This document shows positions 6,070-64,000 of a stretch of 64,000 nt of DNA, piece by piece. Position 1 is the first letter of the stretch. The number at the start of each line of letters is the position of its first letter. The position numbers were made by a program, and so were the translations under genes. The DNA is from Paenibacillus sp. FSL R5-0517 (GTDB lineage Bacteria; Bacillota; Bacilli; Paenibacillales; Paenibacillaceae), in contig NZ_CP150235.1 of NCBI RefSeq assembly GCF_037974355.1, positions 2,046,001-2,110,000 of the forward strand. The letters are read 5' to 3'. The notes beneath the pieces were generated by a model that was not told the DNA's origin, ran no database searches, and worked only from the letters and a program-made list of their open reading frames with translations.

Positions 6070-6501
6070 TCAAGCAAGCCACACCATAATGGATGCCAAG
6101 GCCAAAAAAGACTTAAATGTACACGCTAATTTATCATAACGAGTCGCTAAACGACGATAATTCTTTACTTTATTAAAGAAGCATTCCACCAAATGGCGCT
6201 CTTTGTAGACATCCCGATCATATTTTAGGGTCATTCGGCGATTTTTCTTTCCGGGAATCACCGGTATGGCCTGTTGTTTCTTTAAAAAGGCCCGAATGGC
6301 ATTTGTATCATACGCTCGGTCGGCCAGGACTTGCTTCCGGGTCAGTTTCATGCTTTTAAGGATTTCGAAACCTTGGACGGAGTCATGCGCTTCGCCTCCG
6401 GTCAAGTCGAAGCGAAGTGGATTTCCTAACGCGTCAACTACCGCATGAATTTTCGTACTTAATCCACCTCGGGAACGTCCGATCGCTTGCTTGCTTTGCC
6501 C
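6070..6501 (-). CDS. IS5-family transposase, second frame (C-terminal part)
   Basis: This frame carries the second catalytic Asp (VLADRAYD) and the catalytic Glu (RHLVECFFNKVKNYRRLATRYDK) of the DDE domain. It also has the RSRGGLSTKIHAVVD stretch that normally follows directly on the first frame's product. It has no good start of its own at the junction; the ATG at 6405 is too far in, since conserved residues lie upstream. A -1 ribosomal frameshift in the first frame would produce a transposase of about 254 residues. The interval given is the part of this frame that would be read after the shift. Confidence 0.85.
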   Translation of the reverse strand, partial: GQSKQAIGRSRGGLSTKIHAVVDALGNPLRFDLTGGEAHDSVQGFEILKSMKLTRKQVLADRAYDTNAIRAFLKKQQAIPVIPGKKNRRMTLKYDRDVYKERHLVECFFNKVKNYRRLATRYDKLACTFKSFLALASIMVWLA

Positions 6502-6833
6502 CCTTTTGCGCCTGATCCATGCTGGTGAACTCGCACAATCGTGGCGTCAATCATCACACTTTCCTCATCAGAATCTAGGGATACATGCTTTAATACTTCA
6601 TCCCAAATGCCCGCTTTCTGCCAGCGTCGAAAGCGGGTGTAAACGGATTTCCAATTGGGAAAGTGGTCCGGTAAATCACGCCAAGGGGCACCTGAACGAG
6701 CTACCCATAGCATCGCATTTAACATAATTCGATTGTCCACTGCGGGACGTCCTCCTTGTGGTTTTCGTTCAGGTGGAAACAAATCTTGAATTAGCCGCCA
6801 TTGTCTCTCGCGAATTTCGTATCGTGTAATCAT
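6459..6833 (-). CDS. IS5-family transposase, first frame (N-terminal part)
   Basis: A 124-residue product with the N-terminal region of IS5/IS427-type transposases: the LFPPERKPQGGRPAVDNR segment, APWRDLP and the first catalytic Asp in MIDATIVRVHQH. The last residues after GGKASK are out of register with the family, showing that the natural protein continues in the -1 frame. The slip site is probably A_AAA_GGG at 6507-6501 on the minus strand. The short product made without slippage may act as a regulator, as proposed for other two-frame insertion sequences; that is inference. Confidence 0.9.
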   Translation of the reverse strand: MITRYEIRERQWRLIQDLFPPERKPQGGRPAVDNRIMLNAMLWVARSGAPWRDLPDHFPNWKSVYTRFRRWQKAGIWDEVLKHVSLDSDEESVMIDATIVRVHQHGSGAKGGKASKRSDVPEVD

Positions 6834-6868
6834 TTAATATAATTAACCCATCTATTACCATTTAATCG

Positions 6869-6884
6869 GTTTGAAGACACGCCC
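6869..6884 (-). repeat. Right terminal inverted repeat of the IS
   Basis: Exact 16-bp inverse of 6054-6069, followed by TA at 6885-6886. Confidence 0.92.
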
Positions 6885-6921
6885 TAGTATAGAACGAAAT
6901 ATAAGGGAAAAGAATTTGACT

Positions 6922-6969
6922 AAAAAAGCATACTGCTATGCTTAACCCTAGTCTGAGCAGTGCTTTTTT
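6922..6969. terminator. Terminator-like hairpin after the IS
   Basis: An arm AAAAAAGC, 2-nt bulge, ACTGCT pairs across an 18-nt loop with AGCAGTGCTTTTTT. It isolates the M23 peptidase gene from upstream transcription. It may be the remains of a pre-insertion downstream element. Confidence 0.65.
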
Positions 6970-7043
6970 GTAATAAAATAAGATCAATAGCACAAGCCAT
7001 TTCATAGATTTAAGCATTAAATGATAGAAAAGGATGTGAGTGT

Positions 7044-7754
7044 ATGAGCGTTAACCCTTTCGAGGGATATCGGATTACAAGTTCATTCGGCTATCGCATT
7101 CATCCCATTCATGGTGGACAAACATTTCACCGCGGAATTGATCTCGTAACAGAGCCGTGGAATGGCCCTGTCTATGCCTTTATGGAAGGCAGGGTACGTT
7201 TTGCTTCCGAAGGAGTTACAGGCTCCGGATTCGGCGGTTATGGGCTTACAGTTGCCCTTCAAGATCATCGAGGCTACTTGCATTGTTATGGTCACCTTTC
7301 TCGCATTGCCGTAACAGTTGGACAGTTGGTGAAACGAGGCCAGCTGATCGGTAATCAGGGAAGCACGGGTCAGAGTACTGGTCCGCATGTACATTATGAG
7401 ATTCGTAAAACAAGTGCACCTTCTTACGGGTATACAGCCAGTGAAGATGGTGTGACGGAACCCGCTGCATATCTGGCGGCCGAATACGGAACTGCGACTC
7501 AGGAACAGGAGGCTCCGCCGATGACCGCTGAGCAGAAGAGAATATTTGAAGACATGCAGAAGACGCTGGAGATTCAAGGGGAATGGATTCAGCAACAAAA
7601 GCAACTTTCCAATATGGATTGTCCCACATGGGCGCAACAAGCTTATGATTATTATCGTCCGTTTATTATGAACGACAAAGGCAGTTATGAATTTTGGAGA
7701 TTACTTGTTATCATGCACCGTAAGGAAAAAGGCGTCCAGGTTCATTCGGATTAG
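7044..7754 (+). CDS. M23 family (LytM/Gly-Gly-type) metallopeptidase
   Basis: A zinc metallopeptidase of the M23/LytM class, which cut peptide cross-bridges in peptidoglycan. The core spans residues about 10-130: HRGIDL supplies the His and Asp ligands and HVHYEI supplies the HxH motif. There is no signal peptide or membrane segment, which is unusual for a wall hydrolase. It could act inside the mother cell, be released by lysis, or be phage-derived. The C-terminal 80 residues are helical and Gln/Glu/Trp-rich and match no domain I know. The ATG follows AGGATGTGAG. It stands alone between two terminators. Confidence 0.82.
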   Translation: MSVNPFEGYRITSSFGYRIHPIHGGQTFHRGIDLVTEPWNGPVYAFMEGRVRFASEGVTGSGFGGYGLTVALQDHRGYLHCYGHLSRIAVTVGQLVKRGQLIGNQGSTGQSTGPHVHYEIRKTSAPSYGYTASEDGVTEPAAYLAAEYGTATQEQEAPPMTAEQKRIFEDMQKTLEIQGEWIQQQKQLSNMDCPTWAQQAYDYYRPFIMNDKGSYEFWRLLVIMHRKEKGVQVHSD

Positions 7755-7920
7755 AATATATAGATCATTCGGAACGACAGGATTTATTTTTATGAATAGT
7801 TCGAATCCTCGGGGCAGAACCAGGCAGACAACCAATTGTGGAATGTTGCCACTTCGCCCGGTTCATTAGGTCGATAAACGTCATATGTTAGGGTATACCT
7901 GATGAAGAGGAGGCAATCAC

Positions 7921-8061
7921 ATGAGCGAAGTAGGATATGGCTGTGGAGGCAACGTAGGCGGAGTAGGTGGCGTTGGTGGATACAATATGTTCACTAACAC
8001 GGGTGCAATCCTGGTACTGTTCATTCTGTTGGTTATCATCACAAAAGCATTCTGCGTGTAA
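7921..8061 (+). CDS. YjcZ-family mini membrane protein (46 aa)
   Basis: The 46-residue product has a Gly/Val-rich N-terminus containing GYGCGG and GGVGGVGGY, then one hydrophobic segment (AILVLFILLVIIT) and a short tail AFCV. This is the pattern of the tiny Bacillus/Paenibacillus YjcZ-type sporulation-associated membrane proteins. AGAGGAGG at 7906-7913 is an excellent ribosome binding site. It is followed by a terminator, so it is a monocistronic small gene. Family function is unknown; localisation to spore membranes or coat has been suggested for relatives. Confidence 0.85.
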   Translation: MSEVGYGCGGNVGGVGGVGGYNMFTNTGAILVLFILLVIITKAFCV

Positions 8062-8087
8062 TCCAATATGATCGAATAGAAATACAC

Positions 8088-8115
8088 AAAGGGAAGCCGA
8101 TTAAGGCTTCCCTTT
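8088..8115. terminator. Hairpin between convergent genes
   Basis: A perfect 11-bp stem (AAAGGGAAGCC with GGCTTCCCTTT) and a 6-nt loop. The T-run is short (3). It probably ends both the 46-residue gene and, from the other side, the HD-GYP gene. Confidence 0.6.
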
Positions 8116-8197
8116 GGTCATAATCAACTTATTAAGTTTGCTATGCCTATCTAAGCTACTTTTTGGTTCTTCGTATGCATGTTTGTACAATGAACAG

Positions 8198-9247
8198 TTA
8201 CTGTACATAGATCTCAACGATAGCAATATCTCTTTCTTTCGCTAAATCAATAAAGGCAGTAGAGGTCTGAACGAGTGGGCGGAAGTAATCTGCAGGATTA
8301 TTCATCACAATTAGTCCCGTCTGACCCGTGGAGAGCAGAACCCGTTTACCGATAAAATTAGGCAACATGTGCTTGATCAGTTCCTGCGTGGCTTCACCAT
8401 TTAACTGACCGAAACTGAGACTGTACAGTTCACACAGAACAGAGATTAGTTCCTGTTTGGTTTGATACACCCGATTGGTCGTCATGGCGCTGTAAACGTC
8501 CGCTACAGCCGTTATACGGGAATATGGGTGGATCTCGTCCCCTCGCAGTCCATGGGGATAACCACTTCCATCCTCGCGCTCATGATGCTGAAGAGCAACC
8601 GTTGCCAGAATTTCATCCTGCGTGGATTCTTTAATGATATCGTACCCATAGAATGTGTGTTTCTTCATTTCGTCAAATTCTTCCGTGGTCAATTTACCAG
8701 GTTTATGTAACATTTCAGAAGGAATCTTGGACTTGCCAATATCATGAAGATATCCTGCTTTGGCTACCGTTAGACATTCCTCGGGGTTATAACCCATCCA
8801 GCCGGCGATATAAAAAGCGAGCATTCCGACTTGCAATGAATGGTTATACGTATAATCGCTATCCCCGTCCAGCATAAGCAACAAGGAGACAACATCTTTC
8901 TGTTTTTCCAACTGTCCCGTTAGGGTAATCAAAATCTCATCGACTTGTGTCTCATCAATAAAACCCTTCTCCATCGCTTGTTGAAATAGAGACTCAGTAC
9001 CTTTGATCGTATCGTTAAACAGATTAGTTAACAGACGGGTTTGATCGGAAGGTAAGGTTTGTGCATCAGAGTGTAGGTCGGATGTGGTATGTTCTACATC
9101 TGCGTAATCGATTCCATGTTGCAGCAGCTTGGACAGGTCATCTTCACTGAGGGTGGAACCTTTCATCAGGATGTGGAGACCCGAACTGTTGTATACATCA
9201 TTTTTTAACAGGTCGCCAGGTTTGAGATCAGTAACATGCACTCTCAC
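8198..9247 (-). CDS. HD-GYP domain protein (probable c-di-GMP phosphodiesterase)
   Basis: 349 residues. An N-terminal segment (about residues 1-60: LKPGDLL..V....G..I..KG) is shared with the gene at 11740. The HD-GYP domain follows, with HDIGK (HD pair) and HHEREDGSGYP (GYP signature), all metal-binding residues apparently intact. HD-GYP enzymes hydrolyse cyclic di-GMP to pGpG or GMP. I use GTG 9247, which has AGGTGG 7 nt upstream and matches the start of the paralogue; the longer frame up to 9418 would overlap the neighbouring moa gene. A TATAAT-like hexamer lies about 40 nt upstream on the minus strand. Confidence 0.88.
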   Translation of the reverse strand: MRVHVTDLKPGDLLKNDVYNSSGLHILMKGSTLSEDDLSKLLQHGIDYADVEHTTSDLHSDAQTLPSDQTRLLTNLFNDTIKGTESLFQQAMEKGFIDETQVDEILITLTGQLEKQKDVVSLLLMLDGDSDYTYNHSLQVGMLAFYIAGWMGYNPEECLTVAKAGYLHDIGKSKIPSEMLHKPGKLTTEEFDEMKKHTFYGYDIIKESTQDEILATVALQHHEREDGSGYPHGLRGDEIHPYSRITAVADVYSAMTTNRVYQTKQELISVLCELYSLSFGQLNGEATQELIKHMLPNFIGKRVLLSTGQTGLIVMNNPADYFRPLVQTSTAFIDLAKERDIAIVEIYVQ

Positions 9248-25474: not shown

Positions 25475-27193
25475 TTACGCAAGCTTGAATCGCTTAACCA
25501 GCTGATCAAGTGCATCAGACATTTCATTCAACTGCTTGGACGTGTCAGACATCTCCTGCAGAGAAGCAAGTTGTTCCTCCGTCATTGCAGATACTTCTTC
25601 CGTGGCTGAAGCCGTGTCTTCCACAACGGCCGATACTTCATTAATGGACTTCATCACGTCCTCACTTCCGGAAGTTAACTCCTCGACAACTGCAGATACC
25701 TCCAGAACTTCACCACTGAGGTTGTGAATATGCTGAGTAATGGTTGAAAAGGCATTACCTGCATCCTCAATGGTTCGCAACCCTTCATTCACATGTAGAG
25801 TACTCTCATCAACGACCTGAGCCGTACTTTGAACACCTGCTACCACGGTTTCCAATATACTTGTAATCTCTTTCGCGGATGTTGCACTTTGATCTGCAAG
25901 ATTACGGATTTCCGAGGCAACGACAGCGAAGCCACGTCCATTCTCCCCAGCACGGGCTGCTTCAATTCCGGCGTTAAGTGCAAGCAGATTCGTTTGTCTC
26001 GCAATACCCGACATGGAGTCTGCAATGTTGATCACCTGATCAGACATCATCGAAATTTCATTAATGGCTTCCTGTACAGAGAGGAAGGATTGTTCAATGG
26101 AACTCATTTTGCCTACTGCATTATCAATGCGCTGTTGCCCATCCATGGCAATGGATTCGGTACGCACAGCACGTTCTGCAACGTCACTTGCCGAGGAGGC
26201 GACACGATTAAGCCCGGTGAGGGATTGCTGCATCGCGGCTACCATGGTTTGCGTAAGAGCAACCTGTTCATCAGCCCCTTCCGCGACACGTTCCATCGCA
26301 GTGGCAACCTCTTTTCCAGCAAGATGGCTATCGGCAACCCCTTTATCCAATCGATCCGAAGCTGTACTCAGAATCATGGCATTACTCTGAACATCCAACA
26401 TCATTTGCTGCAAACCAGCGAGCATTGTATTAGCTGCCTCTGCAAGTTCACGAGTTTCGTCTTTCATTGGCGTAGCGATTCTCAGTGTGAGGTCACCATT
26501 GGAAGAACCGATGTCATTCAATGCCTGCTTCACGGTACGGATGTTCTTAACAATGGCGCGTGAGAGGACCAATGCAGTGATGAACGAGATGATGGCCACA
26601 ACGACAAGTGCCCCATATAGTTCCAAGTTCAGGAGTGCATTTTTTTGCTTCAGCGCTTCTGTACGGTTTTCGGTTAACGTATGTTCATTGGTTCGAAACG
26701 TATCGAGGGCAGTCCGAATCTGGTCCATGTCTCTTTTACCTGGATCATCTGCGAAGAAATCTCGAATGGCTTGCGTATTATTGGCTTGGCGAAGGGCAAT
26801 CACGGGTTCTCCAGCGACTTGGACCCAGTTCTCCATATTGGTATGTATGTCTTCCAAAAGTGCAAGTTGATCCGGATTGTCCGAAATCAAAGCAGCAAGT
26901 TCGTCTCGGAGTGTAATGAGCTGCTCTTTTCCTCGGAGGTAGGGATCGAGGTAAGTGTCCTGACCGGTGATGATGTAACCACGTTGGCCTGTTTCCATAT
27001 CCACCATGTTTCTTTCGAGCTCATAGGTTAGCGCGTGTACTCTCATATCGTGATCGACCAGAAAATCCAGTTCCCGTTGAAGCTGACTTGTGCTGTTCTG
27101 AATCAGCAGGATGCAACCAGCCAGTACAGCAAGCACGAGTAAATATCCTAATCCAATCTTATAAAAAATCTTGAAGGTCTTACGCTTTTTCAT
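25475..27193 (-). CDS. Methyl-accepting chemotaxis protein with CHASE3-type sensor
   Basis: 572-residue transmembrane chemoreceptor. TM1 at about residues 12-31, a helical extracellular domain with the CHASE3 hallmark [13 protein letters not shown] (about 62-74), TM2 at about 195-215, HAMP, then a long signalling coiled coil with the tip [28 protein letters not shown]. It couples an unknown ligand to CheA. No chemotaxis or flagellar gene is nearby, and I found no convincing sigma-D promoter. It probably forms a single-gene unit. Confidence 0.93.
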
Positions 27194-58520: not shown

Positions 58521-60341
58521 ATGAGACCGTTCCGAATTCGCCTTGCCATCATTATGATGGTGCTGATCGGTGTATCCGTCATTGTAGCTGGATATACAAT
58601 GGGCAGAGTGTTTAAAACTACGCACATAACCGCATTGGAGCAAACCATGGTGCGGGAGATTAATTTGCTCAAAGCCACGTTTCCCTTCCATGATGCAAGT
58701 GATCCAACCTCGGAAGCCACACGAAAGTACTATTCAGATCGGGCGCTGGAACTGGATCGCCTCACGGATTCCCGGGTGACCTTCATCAATAAAGACGGCA
58801 CCGTCATTGGAGATTCCGAGAGTAATCCGGCAGCGATGGATAATCACTTGAACCGGGAAGAAATTCTGGGTGCGGTTGGGGATGGATACGGGCAGTCCAT
58901 ACGGTACAGTGAAACACTGGGACAGGACATGCTGTATGTAGCACTACCTGTCAATTCGGATCAAAGTGACATGATTGAAATGCCCAGCGGCAAATTTGAT
59001 GGCTACATCCGTCTTTCAATGAGTCTGCATGCGGTTGATCAGGGTCTTCAGCGTGGTTGGATGATTATGTTTGCTGCACTAGGACTGCTGTTCTTAATTG
59101 TCGCATTTGTCAGTTATAGGGTTGCACGCGGACTAACCTCCCCGATTGAGCATATTACAAAAGTGGCTCATCGAATCACCAAGCTGGAATACGATGCGAG
59201 AGTTGATGTAACGCGTAGAGATGAGATCGGACAGTTGGGGCTTGCGATCAACGGAATGGCAGACAGCTTGCAGTCCCAGCTGAAGACGATTCGTGACAAT
59301 GAAGCCTTGCTACAGAGCGTCCTCGCGAACATGACCGGAGGCATTGTCATGATCGATGCAGGGCAATCCATTGCATTGGTTAATCGGGAAGCAGAGCGTA
59401 TGCTCGGTATTCAGGCAGGAAAAGTTACGGGTAAGCCTTATACTGAATTGAAAAGACACTACGAATTAACACGTACCATTGAAGAGAGTGTTGCACTGAA
59501 AGATCGGATGCATGAAGAAGTGAGTGTGTTCAACCCGGAGGAAAAACTGATCCGGATTGATGGCGTACCGATGTCGGAAGATGATGGTAGTTATCGAGGC
59601 ATGTTGTTCCTGTTGCAGGACGTGACGGCGATTCGCCGATTGGAGTCGATGCGCAGTGAGTTTGTTGCGAATGTCTCACATGAGCTTAAGACACCTGTTG
59701 CTGCGGTCAAGGGCTTTGCCGAAACGTTGCTCAGTGGCGGGGTACAGGATAAGGAGACGGAGCGTTCATTCCTGAAAATCATCTATGATGAAGGAGATCG
59801 ACTTAACCGATTGATTGGGGATATTCTGGAATTATCCAAAATCGAATCCAAACGCGCGCCTTTGCAATGTTCACCTGTTCATGTACACTCTTTCTTCGAA
59901 ATGGTGCTGGGCACCCTGTCCAAGGTGGCGGAGAAAAAGCAGATTCGTCTGGAAATGCATGTTCCGGAGGAACTGTACATTGAAGCGGATGAGGACAAGA
60001 TGAAGCAGATCTTCATCAATCTGTTATCCAACGGAATCAACTATACCCCGGATGGCGGACGAGTGAAGTTACAGGTGACAATGGATAACGACGATGAAGT
60101 GGTCTTTGCGGTGTCGGATACTGGCATTGGCATACCGAAAAAAGATCTGCCGCGGATCTTCGAACGATTCTATCGCGTTGATAAAGGCAGATCCCGTAAT
60201 TCAGGGGGCACGGGCCTTGGACTTTCCATCGTGAAACATCTGGTGGAATTGCATCATGGCAAATTGTCTGTTGAGAGTGAGCTGGGCATGGGGACAACGT
60301 TCCGTGTGATCCTTCCATTCATTCAGGATGAAGAGATCTAG
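58521..60341 (+). CDS. phoR: PhoR-like sensor histidine kinase
   Basis: 606 residues: TM1 (about 7-27), extracytoplasmic sensor domain (about 28-185), TM2 (about 187-205), HAMP, PAS (about 265-370), then HisKA with the phospho-acceptor H387 in VSHELKTP and an HATPase with INLLSNGINYTP, VSDTGIGIP, FERFYRVD and GGTGLGLSIVKHL. This is the PhoR/WalK architecture. Placement before a PhoP-like regulator, PhoP boxes, pstB and phoU points to PhoR. Unlike B. subtilis phoP-phoR, the kinase gene comes first. AAGGAAGAG precedes the ATG. Confidence 0.85.
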   Translation: MRPFRIRLAIIMMVLIGVSVIVAGYTMGRVFKTTHITALEQTMVREINLLKATFPFHDASDPTSEATRKYYSDRALELDRLTDSRVTFINKDGTVIGDSESNPAAMDNHLNREEILGAVGDGYGQSIRYSETLGQDMLYVALPVNSDQSDMIEMPSGKFDGYIRLSMSLHAVDQGLQRGWMIMFAALGLLFLIVAFVSYRVARGLTSPIEHITKVAHRITKLEYDARVDVTRRDEIGQLGLAINGMADSLQSQLKTIRDNEALLQSVLANMTGGIVMIDAGQSIALVNREAERMLGIQAGKVTGKPYTELKRHYELTRTIEESVALKDRMHEEVSVFNPEEKLIRIDGVPMSEDDGSYRGMLFLLQDVTAIRRLESMRSEFVANVSHELKTPVAAVKGFAETLLSGGVQDKETERSFLKIIYDEGDRLNRLIGDILELSKIESKRAPLQCSPVHVHSFFEMVLGTLSKVAEKKQIRLEMHVPEELYIEADEDKMKQIFINLLSNGINYTPDGGRVKLQVTMDNDDEVVFAVSDTGIGIPKKDLPRIFERFYRVDKGRSRNSGGTGLGLSIVKHLVELHHGKLSVESELGMGTTFRVILPFIQDEEI

Positions 60342-60376: not shown

Positions 60377-60408
60377 TTTACACCGCGTTAACAATTTAGT
60401 GCTATGAT
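60377..60408 (+). promoter_or_regulatory. PhoP box and promoter of phoP
   Basis: TTTACA (60377-60382), 5 bp, TTAACA (60388-60393), 9 bp, then -10 TATGAT (60403-60408). The 11-bp repeat period and lack of a -35 box are typical of PhoP-activated promoters in Bacillus. It suggests positive autoregulation of phoP from inside the phoR-phoP gap. Confidence 0.7.
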
Positions 60409-60457: not shown

Positions 60458-61186
60458 ATGGCACAGCGTTTGCTAGTTATTGAGGATGAACCTACATTAT
60501 CGAGATTACTCACGTATAACCTGACACAGGAAGGTTATGACGTTACGGCAGAGGATCACGGATCTGCAGGATATGATCGGGCCTTGTCTCAGGAATTTGA
60601 TCTCATTTTACTTGATCTGATGCTTCCGGGCATGAATGGTCTGGACATTCTGAATAAGTTAAGAATACAGGGTGTCAGTACACCTGTTATCATTCTGACC
60701 GCCAAGAACGGTGAAGCCGAGGTAGTACAGGGACTGAAATCGGGTGCCGATGATTATATTACCAAACCATTTGGTGTATCTGAGTTATTAGCCCGAGTGG
60801 ATGCCGTATTAAGACGTTATTCCAATGGTGAAGACTTACCACAGCCTGATGACAAGGATGGTTCACGAATTATTCTGGGAGAGCTTGAGATTTATCCTCT
60901 GAAATATGAAGTGACACTGGGTGGACAATCCATCAGTCTGCGTCCGAAAGAATTCGAAGTTCTCTTATATTTGGCCAAAAAGCCGGGTGTGGTACTGACA
61001 AGGGATGATCTGATGAACGCGGTGTGGGGCTTCGATTATATCGGAGGTCAACGAACAGTGGACGTACACGTCAGCTCATTACGCAAAAAGCTGGAGCTGG
61101 ACCCAGAATCGGTTCACATTGATTCCATTCGTGGTGTAGGTTATAAATTGGTTGTGAAAAGAAAAACTCCCCATCATTCAAGTTAG
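60458..61186 (+). CDS. phoP: PhoP-like response regulator (OmpR family)
   Basis: 242 residues. Receiver domain with phospho-acceptor D53 in LLDLMLPG and the Lys in DDYITKPF; the C-terminal winged helix has the OmpR/PhoB pattern (LRPKEFEVLLYLAKKPG, then RTVDVHVSSLRKKL). It would bind the TT(T/A)ACA repeats found upstream of itself and of downstream genes. ATG 60458 is preceded by AGAAGGGG, and residues before it are not conserved. Its terminator overlaps the last codons. Confidence 0.9.
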   Translation: MAQRLLVIEDEPTLSRLLTYNLTQEGYDVTAEDHGSAGYDRALSQEFDLILLDLMLPGMNGLDILNKLRIQGVSTPVIILTAKNGEAEVVQGLKSGADDYITKPFGVSELLARVDAVLRRYSNGEDLPQPDDKDGSRIILGELEIYPLKYEVTLGGQSISLRPKEFEVLLYLAKKPGVVLTRDDLMNAVWGFDYIGGQRTVDVHVSSLRKKLELDPESVHIDSIRGVGYKLVVKRKTPHHSS

Positions 61187-61209
61187 CAATGATCGGGGAG
61201 TTTTATTTT
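61163..61209 (+). terminator. Terminator overlapping the end of phoP
   Basis: AAAACTCCCCATCATT (61163-61178) pairs with AATGAT and GGGGAGTTTT (61188-61204, one bulged C). The left arm lies inside the coding sequence and the stop codon is in the loop. The T-rich tail runs into the first repeat of the next PhoP box. Confidence 0.85.
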
Positions 61210-61260
61210 ACATTCGTTTAACATAAAGGAGGATGTTCCTTTACGTAGAGGGAGTAGCAT
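61207..61260 (+). promoter_or_regulatory. PhoP box and promoter of the CBS chemoreceptor gene
   Basis: TTTACA (61207), TTAACA (61218), a weak GAGGAT (61229) and TTTACG (61240), each 11 bp apart, then 9 bp and TAGCAT (61255-61260). The arrangement matches that before pstB position for position. Confidence 0.7.
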
Positions 61261-61338
61261 GGACTTATCTGGGTGATACTTTATACCTACATAATCTATC
61301 TCAAGACGGAGCTAATACGTAAAGGAGATTGCGCATTT

Positions 61339-62520
61339 ATGCCCATGTTGCTCGAAGTGAAACCTGACCAGCCTCATGTTGTTTTACATAACGAAGAATT
61401 AACGACGCCTGAACAACAGTATCATGAAGTAACGGTGGTTGCTGAAGAACCTGTAATCCATCTGCAAGACTATTACCGCCAGGTTCCTGTCGCCGGAGTC
61501 CACACGACCTGTGGAGAAGCAGCGACGATGATGAATCAGGGTCAGGAGCACCCTTGCATTGTATTATGTGATGAGCAGATGAAACCTACTGGATTGTTAA
61601 TGAGAGAGACGTTATATCGGATGTTAAACGGCCGTTTTGCCGCAGATCTATTCTACCGTAAGCCGGTCATACAAGTCGTGAACACATCACCGGTTATTGC
61701 AGATATTCATATGGAAGCGACCACAATTATCGATATCGCACTTGGACGGAATGAACAACATTTCTACGATTGTCTACTCGTTACGGATCAGGATCGACTG
61801 CTCGGTGTGCTGACGATGCGTGATGTGATGTCGCTCTCCCGCAGATTGCAACAAGCGTCTTCCGAAGAACGTGTTCGTACGGTATCGGAGAGCAGGCAGG
61901 AGATAACGAGAATTAATGAAGCAGTTACCAAGCTGGTGCATGCAGCGAATCAGACCGTTCATGAGGCCCGGGAGATCATGGCATTGTCCAAGCGGGGCGA
62001 AGAGAGTTTGAAGCATGTCGATGCTTCCTATAACCAGGTACATCAGCACATGGAGAGTCAAGGACAACATGCGGATCACATGCTGAATTCGATCAAAACA
62101 GGCTCAGGCATGGCACATTCCATTCGATCCCTGGCGGATCAGAGTGGGCTCCTTGCCCTGAATGCTTCCATCGAAGCAGCACATGCCGGTGAATATGGAC
62201 GAGGTTTTCAGATTGTTGCAGGCGAGATTCGAACGTTGGCGAAACAGACCCGTGAAGTTGCAGGCAACATGTCTTCATTGCTGGAGAATATTGGTGGACT
62301 GACCCTTCAGACCGTAGAACTGGTTAAGGCAAGCGGAGCGGAGATTGATGACAGTTCGGTACATGTCACTGCAGGGGGAGCCACGTTCCGGCAACTGAAC
62401 AGTGCGGTGAAAGATCTGTCCCGTATAGCAGAGGAAATTGCCGTGGAAGGCGGAAAAGCTGGAGAAGTCGCAGAGCATATTCGTACAAAGCTGGATGAGA
62501 TGGTTTTGAATAATGAGTAA
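61339..62520 (+). CDS. Soluble CBS-pair methyl-accepting chemotaxis protein
   Basis: 393 residues, no TM segment or HAMP. N-terminal segment, a CBS pair (about 42-175, with LLVTDQDRLLGVLTMRDVMSLSRR at the end), then an MCP signalling domain (about 180-390) with a conserved tip LLALNASIEAAHAGEYGRGFQIVAGEIRTLAKQ. CBS pairs usually bind adenine nucleotides, so it may report energy or nucleotide state to CheA. A PhoP-box promoter lies just upstream. ATG 61339 follows AAGGAG at 11 nt; the longer frame to 61273 starts in the leader. Its place between phoP and pstB is unexplained. Confidence 0.85.
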   Translation: MPMLLEVKPDQPHVVLHNEELTTPEQQYHEVTVVAEEPVIHLQDYYRQVPVAGVHTTCGEAATMMNQGQEHPCIVLCDEQMKPTGLLMRETLYRMLNGRFAADLFYRKPVIQVVNTSPVIADIHMEATTIIDIALGRNEQHFYDCLLVTDQDRLLGVLTMRDVMSLSRRLQQASSEERVRTVSESRQEITRINEAVTKLVHAANQTVHEAREIMALSKRGEESLKHVDASYNQVHQHMESQGQHADHMLNSIKTGSGMAHSIRSLADQSGLLALNASIEAAHAGEYGRGFQIVAGEIRTLAKQTREVAGNMSSLLENIGGLTLQTVELVKASGAEIDDSSVHVTAGGATFRQLNSAVKDLSRIAEEIAVEGGKAGEVAEHIRTKLDEMVLNNE

Positions 62521-62604: not shown

Positions 62605-62658
62605 TTTACATTCCGTTAACATGAAAGTGATACGGTTTTTACAATGAGAGGGTAGGAT
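62605..62658 (+). promoter_or_regulatory. PhoP box and promoter of pstB-phoU
   Basis: TTTACA (62605), TTAACA (62616), weak GTGATA (62627) and TTTACA (62638), 11 bp apart, then 9 bp and TAGGAT (62653-62658). This is the strongest of the three sites. Confidence 0.78.
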
Positions 62659-62754: not shown

Positions 62755-63510
62755 ATGAAGGACCTCATTCACATTGATAAACTTAATTTATACTATGATA
62801 CGCATCACGCGCTTAAAAATATATCGATGGATCTGCCGGAAAAAACGGTTACTGCGTTCATCGGGCCGTCAGGTTGTGGTAAATCGACATTGCTTCGCAC
62901 ATTGAACCGGATGAATGACATGATTCCGGGTGTTCGTGTGGAAGGACAGGTTATGTTGAATGGCTCCGATATCTACAGTAATGAGATTGAAGTGGAGACA
63001 CTGCGCAAACGGGTCGGCATGGTGTTTCAACAACCGAATCCGTTCCCCAAATCCATCTATGATAACGTCGCTTATGGACCACGCTTGCATGGGGTAACCC
63101 AGAAGGCTGAACTGGATCAGTTGGTGGAACAGAGTCTTGTCCATGCGGCACTGTGGGATGAAGTGAAGGATGTATTGAAAAAGTCGGCACTGAGTCTGTC
63201 TGGCGGACAACAGCAGCGTCTCTGTATTGCACGGGCGCTGGCTGTACAGCCTGACGTTCTGCTGATGGATGAAGCAACGTCGGCACTCGACCCGATCTCC
63301 ACGTTGAAAATTGAGGAGCTGGTGAAGGAATTGCATCACAAGTACACCATCGTTATGGTTACCCACAATATGCACCAGGCGGCACGGGTATCTGGACGCA
63401 CGGTATTTTTCCTGAATGGTGAAGTGGTGGAGGCAGCTGATACGGAGACGTTATTCTCCACACCGCAAGATTCCCGAACCGAGGATTATATCTCTGGAAG
63501 GTTCGGTTAA
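62755..63510 (+). CDS. pstB: PstB, phosphate ABC transporter ATP-binding protein
   Basis: 251 residues. Walker [10 protein letters not shown] at 37-45, Q-loop region [19 protein letters not shown] typical of PstB, signature [15 protein letters not shown], Walker [14 protein letters not shown]. It powers high-affinity phosphate uptake with PstS, PstC and PstA, none of which are in the window. It follows its own PhoP-box promoter and is followed after 63 bp by phoU. The missing membrane and binding subunits must be encoded elsewhere. Confidence 0.96.
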
Positions 63511-63573
63511 GCGAGCTGAGTTGGAATGATCCCGGCATAACCGGAGACGATGGATAAGGAGGACATGAAATCT

Positions 63574-64000
63574 ATGATTCGCAGAAAAGAATTTGATCAG
63601 GAGCTTGAAGAGCTGCGTACCTTGCTCAAGCAAATGGGTGAACATGTAGGAGCAGCACTGGATGGGGCTATTGAGAGTTTACAAACGATGAACGCGGAGA
63701 AAGCTCAGGTCATCATCAAGAATGATGCGAATCTGAATGCCCTTGAAGACAAAATTATGGAGCTTGGCTCCAAACTGATCATTACACAACAGCCGGTGGC
63801 GAAGGATCTCAGACGTATTATCGTGGCTTTCAAAATCTCCAGTGATCTGGAGCGTATGGGAGATCTTGCTCTCGACGTGGCGAAGGTGACACTCCGGATG
63901 GATGGACAGAAGCTGATTAAACCTCTGGTGGATATCCCGCAAATGGCAGAAATCGTGAAATCCATGATTGATGAATCGATCGAATCTTTCCTGAAAGAAA
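63574..64000 (+). CDS. phoU: PhoU, phosphate signalling protein (3' end outside window)
   Basis: The frame is open to the window end, so only about 142 residues are seen. The sequence shows the PhoU repeats: REFD-like start, the ALDGAIESLQ helix, VIIKNDANLNALEDKI, and the metal-site segment DLRRIIVAFKISSDLERMGDLALDVA. PhoU links Pst transport to PhoR activity. AAGGAGG lies 11 nt before ATG 63574; an in-frame ATG at 63565 is only 2 nt from that site. It is co-transcribed with pstB. Confidence 0.95.
   Translation, partial: MIRRKEFDQELEELRTLLKQMGEHVGAALDGAIESLQTMNAEKAQVIIKNDANLNALEDKIMELGSKLIITQQPVAKDLRRIIVAFKISSDLERMGDLALDVAKVTLRMDGQKLIKPLVDIPQMAEIVKSMIDESIESFLKE

Follow-up and report, generated by a model that had tools for sequence, protein, structure and literature searches.

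A soluble CBS-domain chemoreceptor gene with a PhoP-box promoter between phoP and pstB in Paenibacillus

Chemoreceptors linked to phosphate are already known. Pseudomonas aeruginosa CtpL and CtpH are phosphate chemoreceptors, CtpL working through PstS, and low phosphate raises the pst transporter genes and ctp genes by 3 to 27-fold (PMC4926252). CtpH reads phosphate by its own domain and CtpL reads periplasmic PstS, whereas the Paenibacillus receptor described below has a cytoplasmic CBS pair and, unlike either of them, sits in the pho-pst locus itself. In Campylobacter jejuni, tlp2 shares one transcript with phoX and its mutant is reduced in phosphate taxis, PhosR control of tlp2 being left open in that study (PMC6250842). 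This lineage is unrelated to Paenibacillus, and the link between a chemoreceptor and phosphate genes is common to both. Tlp2 is presumably a receptor type other than CBS-MCP. Among soluble receptors, Bacillus subtilis HemAT is described as soluble and without HAMP (PMC7542364). HemAT, YfmS and Thermotoga 3g67 all carry the MCP hairpin, as does the Paenibacillus receptor; the input domain differs, being globin-like in HemAT and a CBS pair here. To our knowledge neither a PhoP promoter nor pst linkage belongs to any of these three.

A phosphate study of Paenibacillus sonchi found several receptor genes raised with insoluble phosphate, and from the part of it cited here none of these could be linked to the receptor locus (PMC7793946). 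A literature search limited to open-licence PMC papers gave no account of a CBS-type receptor lying in a pho locus. The initial annotation, which knew of no described Pho-regulon chemoreceptor of this architecture, hinted too broadly at a lack of precedent, since CtpL/CtpH and Tlp2 are phosphate-linked, though as receptors of another kind.

In the window, i.e. the whole stretch of DNA analysed (64,000 nucleotides of Paenibacillus sp. FSL R5-0517), the gene order on the + strand is phoR-type kinase, phoP, receptor, pstB and phoU. The kinase gene (58521..60341) is of the PnpS family (NCBIfam PnpS, 531 bits against a cut-off of 400; HAMP, PAS, HisKA and HATPase domains). The phoP gene (60458..61186; Response_reg, Trans_reg_C) encodes an OmpR/PhoB-type regulator, which reaches the cut-off of none of the 25 NCBIfam models shown out of 105. 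It ends in an intrinsic terminator (61163..61204, + strand; stem of -20.4 kcal/mol with a z of -6.1 and a T-rich run behind it). The receptor gene (61339..62520) is followed by pstB, the phosphate ABC transporter ATPase gene (62755..63510; ABC_tran in Pfam), a name that we assign from recognised sequence likeness and the place before phoU in 25/25 loci, and by phoU, cut by the window end (63568..64000; two PhoU stretches in Pfam). Reading frames and domain matches thus bear out a receptor placed between phoP and pstB. A PhoP-box-like direct repeat, TTTACA-N5-TTAACA, also precedes phoP (60377..60393, +). It was found at matching distance in 24 of 25 orthologue loci, and in the remaining one (L020) the place lies outside the range covered. 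We also observed that the kinase gene precedes phoP in Paenibacillaceae loci where both were found, and that phoP comes first in the outgroup locus L227. In B. subtilis, phoP comes first and the kinase gene follows.

The receptor gene begins at ATG 61339, with AAAGGAG at 61321-61327, and stops at 62518-62520 after 393 codons. The frame could also open further upstream, at GTG 61273. The start at 61339 is nevertheless the likely one from the aligned sequences, because residues M1, P2, L4 and E6 are invariant in 26/26 close orthologues and the DNA 5′ of the ATG has small gaps between species. The span first assigned, 61207..62520, shares its end with the gene; its first base is that of the PhoP box, and the gene begins at 61339. 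Pfam reported above cut-off one CBS stretch (residues 112-166) and MCPsignal (247-388; 87.9 bits against 34.6), and its scan reported no HAMP domain. No membrane helix was found in the receptor, the best 19-residue hydropathy being 1.09 compared with 2.55 in the neighbouring kinase. The whole-receptor model, built with 26 sequences, has mean pLDDT 80.5 and pTM 0.44 and shows a low-confidence 36-residue tail, two CBS repeats, a helix (160-282) running directly out of the second repeat, and a return helix (284-390). Pfam, predicted fold and hydropathy together confirmed the proposed cytoplasmic MCP with a CBS pair and without transmembrane segment. A second MCP signalling domain lies elsewhere in the window (25625-26176, − strand, in a 577-residue frame).

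The promoter of the receptor (61207..61245, +) lies directly after the phoP terminator. It consists of repeats at 61207, 61218 and 61240, namely TTTACA, N5, TTAACA, and then TTTACG 33 bases from the first repeat. That of pstB (62605..62642, +) repeats this 0/11/33 layout, its three elements being TTTACA, TTAACA and TTTACA. In both, a TAG[CG]AT hexamer seen by eye stands at offset 48 (TAGCAT at 61255..61260, +, for the receptor and TAGGAT at 62653-62658 for pstB) and could be the -10 element. PHO boxes are two 11-nucleotide direct repeats, according to a review on the Pho regulon (PMC4415409), and the receptor promoter has a PhoP box of such 11-nt direct repeats.

The window has four matches to the dimer TTHAYA-N5-TTHAYA where 0.31 would be expected, and one of them lies inside phoP on the opposite strand. 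With up to one mismatch allowed, the three-repeat 0/11/33 pattern gave two exact matches against 0.00 expected. Over the genome (6,917,362 bases), it gave the same two exact sites, receptor and pstB, and a third that departs from the pattern at one position; the reversed control gave 0. As the pattern was composed after both sites had been seen, its rarity shows a layout common to two promoters and is not proof of PhoP binding. The one-mismatch site (G000:C1:267346-267383, L256) is upstream of a membrane protein that resembles KdpA by eye.

We then scored each upstream region by its best TTWACA-N5-TTWACA dimer (maximum 12). Scores of at least 11 were obtained for 25 of the 26 close orthologues, window included (the remaining one scored 10), which are related and do not count as 26 independent observations, and for 12/14 distant orthologues within Paenibacillus. 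Dinucleotide-matched random sequences reached this score in 0.8% and 0.9% of cases for the close and distant sets respectively. Among upstream regions of other receptor genes of the source genome, none of 18 did so (these promoter controls used the 18 of 30 own-genome receptor loci whose upstream DNA was long enough). The best box was located 130-132 bases 5′ of the start in 26/26 close loci. In other genera, only 5/19 loci scored at least 11 (0.5% expected). These promoter counts were made without L147, whose frame is broken and which was also kept off the alignments, and without L172, which is not at a pho locus. Accordingly, the full PhoP-box promoter ascribed to the gene was upheld by the repeats and their conservation in the genus. 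Judged from sequence, PhoP control through the box is well supported within Paenibacillus; control by such a box outside the genus is unproven, and there the place after phoP or before the pst genes may provide it.

A sigma-D promoter was considered and rejected: scored on the sigma-D promoter consensus, the receptor reached 8, the commonest random score, and 4/18 other receptor genes scored 10-11. In the distant orthologues L141-L145, ACCGATAT is similar to a sigma-D -10, for which no good -35 could be located.

The contig scan kept the best 80 of 275 loci, of which 25 (L001-L025), all titled Paenibacillus, were orthologous over most of their length with 60-94% identity; the order phoR, phoP, receptor, pstB, phoU was found in 25/25. 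By its CBS part, the gene was detected in 71 of 75 Paenibacillus genomes, once with a broken frame, and a phoP orthologue in 75/75 (E<=1e-80). In all 71 carriers the CBS part shares the strand of phoP and begins 137-458 bases downstream of it. Fifteen of the 23 distant members among these carriers were fetched (L141-L155; 32-41% identity), and each has phoP before and pstB after the receptor. In G013 (L147), CBS part and MCP part read as separate pieces.

We also computed dN for five regions of the gene against ten orthologues. The tip of the signalling hairpin was lowest (0.017-0.085) against 9/10 of them, the exception being L001, for which the C-arm value of 0.016 lies below the tip value of 0.017. 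The CBS pair gave 0.018-0.231 and the N-terminal tail 0.105-1.003, with whole-gene dS from 0.42 up to saturated. By these sequence comparisons the receptor is under strong purifying selection. Could it be a passenger, that is, a fast-evolving gene beside phoP by history, with a box copied from the promoter of pstB and without any specific role in phosphate? Its protein identity is as low as 60% in loci whose PhoP and PstB stay at 96% or above, it is absent in 4/75 Paenibacillus genomes (one with a 68-residue remnant) and broken in G013, and no box is detectable in 14/19 other-genera loci. The purifying selection, the position kept in 71/71 genomes and the constant distance from box to start in 26/26 close loci make this explanation very improbable.

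Linkage was followed in 20 loci from six other genera, picked among the best-scoring places listed, a choice that leans to close relatives and passes over g2, g9, g13, g14, g15 and others. The pst genes (pstB) are downstream of the receptor in 19/20, and phoP is upstream within the fetched stretch in 18/20, ending at most 0.85 kb from the match in 14, with gaps of 2.0-4.2 kb in the remaining four. In L173, L178, L179, L180, L181 and L184 the receptor is separated from pstB by frames like pstS, pstC and pstA. L233 and L234 also have phoP, receptor and pstB. No pho gene was found around the receptor of L172 (G146, another genus). In the tree, L172 groups with a Paenibacillus subgroup, a possible transfer or relocation. 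Thus the gene is beside pst genes well beyond the window, in contrast to the "only here" case that the initial annotation named as counting against its proposal: the receptor is directly downstream of phoP in every Paenibacillus carrier and beside pst genes in nearly all of the other-genera loci.

Across the family, 354/394 genomes match the CBS profile, a number that overstates receptor presence, weaker matches including possible CBS-GGDEF proteins. By eye, a GGDDF-like motif was seen in L222, L224, L225, L229, L230, L232 and L156-L159. Fifteen of the 40 family genomes without a match were examined, and all (15/15) have phoP then pstB with the receptor missing. The 68-residue remnant mentioned above is that of G008 (L242), among the genomes without the gene.

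In the class, 84 of 299 genomes drawn match the profile. Frames of 711-801 residues, which we take to be of EAL/GGDEF type, account for 38 of 62 listed matches outside the family. Four CBS-MCP proteins outside Paenibacillaceae were present among the fetched loci. Two of them, L216 and L228, are not near pho genes. The other two belong to family f18: the L227 receptor adjoins phoP-phoR and that of L235 comes after pstB-phoU, so that both matching f18 genomes carry it beside pho or pst genes. In the gene tree (32 rows), f18 receptors sit on a long branch (3.34) with weak forks, a topology compatible with both an ancient and an independent linkage. In L235, the pst-linked CBS receptor is directly followed by a 759-residue frame (6101-8377), probably EAL/GGDEF. 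Proteins of about 135 residues with only a similar CBS pair were also observed (L217 and L221, and L218-L220 by CBS match). By eye, their neighbours resemble genes for type IV pili or secretion, and ftsE/ftsX.

The CBS pair spans residues 45-168 (61471..61842, +). Its second repeat is reported by Pfam and its first, which Pfam does not report, rests on the predicted fold. The CBS ribose-contact motif is G-h-h-[ST]-x-x-D. It is intact in the second repeat (GVLTMRD), where T159 is invariant in 18/18 sequences and nearly so in 28, and degenerate in the first (GLLMRE), which has no T/S. The CBS-only model (pLDDT 76.7) has Staphylococcus OpuCA as closest fold match; AcuB with AMP, ADP or ATP, MgtE with ATP, CbpB and DarB are also among the matches. 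The CBS-pair fold is common to the receptor and these proteins, in which, as far as we know, it is not joined to an MCP hairpin. The ligand class is likely an adenine nucleotide, from the modelled fold and one intact motif, and fold matching would not separate AMP/ATP from c-di-AMP. A true chemoreceptor whose CBS ligand is not a mononucleotide, most likely c-di-AMP, would link motility to the state of osmolytes or second messengers instead of to energy. OpuCA as top match, and CbpB and DarB also among the matches, three proteins that we take to bind c-di-AMP, speak in its favour, as do related CBS pairs in frames with GGDEF-like motifs (by eye). Against this, AcuB with AMP/ADP/ATP and MgtE with ATP match too and the fold cannot decide the ligand; we regard this version as unlikely.

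The two-helix MCP signalling hairpin (residues 169-390, 61843..62508, +) is built in the model by helices 160-282 and 284-390. Foldseek matches it to chemoreceptors that include 3g67, a soluble receptor of Thermotoga, and 9a72, a model of YfmS with CheW. Its tip, the expected CheA/CheW contact (residues 256-308, 62104..62262, +), is the low-dN region described above. The pattern used to find tips picked out none in 7 of the 30 receptor loci of the source genome, and L106, L108 and L109 were omitted. From the 20 other receptors kept, 30 consensus positions were taken; these receptors retain 26-30 of them and the CBS receptor 22/30. One of its 8 differences is His for Arg at a position that we equate with Tsr R388, as likewise in the same-genome receptors L093 and L108. 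From tip to C-terminus the receptor has 115 residues, compared with 141-172 in 20/23 other same-genome receptors and 89-94 in three. Moreover, the strict methylation motif, in the form that we assumed for the search, was found in 0/8 members of the receptor family tried versus 21/23 other own-genome receptors. From its sequence, the receptor is probably not methylated and may work like a soluble receptor.

The source genome contains two CheA dimer-domain matches, three CheW-type matches in short frames plus two in CheA-size frames, and 34 matches above the MCP cut-off. The CheA dimer domain was found in 392/394 family genomes. Among the 71 Paenibacillus carriers, 44 have one CheA and 27 two. 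Dependence on the second CheA cluster of the source genome was therefore ruled out, and a second chemosensory system is not needed. Nor was loss of the receptor seen to track loss of chemotaxis, since 14 of 15 examined genomes without it keep CheA, G039 being without both; gene loss therefore does not favour the motor as target. G368, the second family genome in which CheA was not found, matches the CBS profile and is only 63% complete.

We propose, with a probability of about 0.6, that PhoP induces the gene and that its product is a cytoplasmic receptor, working without methylation, through which an internal adenine-nucleotide signal reaches the CheA array in phosphate starvation. The PhoP-induced part is supported by the pstB-like promoter layout, box retention, the adjacent phoP terminator, the position in 71/71 carriers and the lack of a sigma-D promoter. 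The chemoreceptor part is supported by selection on tip and CBS pair, by likeness in fold to soluble chemoreceptors and to CBS pairs that bind nucleotides, and by the near-universal CheA of the family. Against it stand the degenerate first CBS motif, the tip differences, CheA in most receptor-less genomes, the box in a minority of other-genera loci, and L172 away from pho genes. Architecture, synteny, promoter and selection are the elements of this proposal that the sequence supports.

The same PhoP-induced protein could instead have a local action on PhoR, PhoU or PstB of the Pho machinery rather than on the flagellar motor, its CBS pair reporting nucleotide state to uptake. The linkage to phoP/pst across the family and in two outgroup-family genomes would fit, and so would CheA kept in 14/15 examined genomes lacking the receptor and a tip less canonical than in the other receptors of the source genome. 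The most conserved part is, however, the tip expected at CheA/CheW, the hairpin matches known soluble receptors, and no MCP hairpin is known to us to act on PhoR or PhoU. Local action is thus distinctly unlikely.

According to the receptor-to-CheA proposal, phosphorylated PhoP would bind the box at 61207-61245 when phosphate is scarce and turn on the receptor together with pstB-phoU. The CBS pair would then bind an intracellular adenine nucleotide (AMP/ADP/ATP or c-di-AMP), as fold and one intact motif suggest, and in the model the ligand state could pass straight into the continuous helix that forms the MCP hairpin. With no membrane anchor, HAMP or methylation motif, the receptor would insert its tip into the CheW/CheA layer and shift CheA activity without adaptation. 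Only in starvation would the swimming bias follow the cell's internal state of phosphate or energy. PhoP binding, nucleotide ligand and CheA output are the steps that we infer. More tentatively, and falling somewhat short of probable, the locus may represent a conserved Gram-positive starvation taxis, in which a receptor built into the phoPR-pst locus in much of the family, with a distant form in another Bacilli family, reads the nucleotide pool inward and not external phosphate. If true, the Pho response would be tied to motility by an internal signal in many soil and root bacteria. That signal would set the receptor apart from the known Pseudomonas phosphate receptors, and it would be switched in by nutrient stress rather than by the motility regulon. 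The gene would also offer a one-gene test of cells navigating by their own nucleotide state.

Finally, pstS and pstC/pstA-like frames of the source genome are located 1.6 Mb from pstB-phoU (G000:C1:504530-505402, L257), and a PhoP-box-like TTAACA-N5-TTTACA site is present about 125 bases before this distant pstS.
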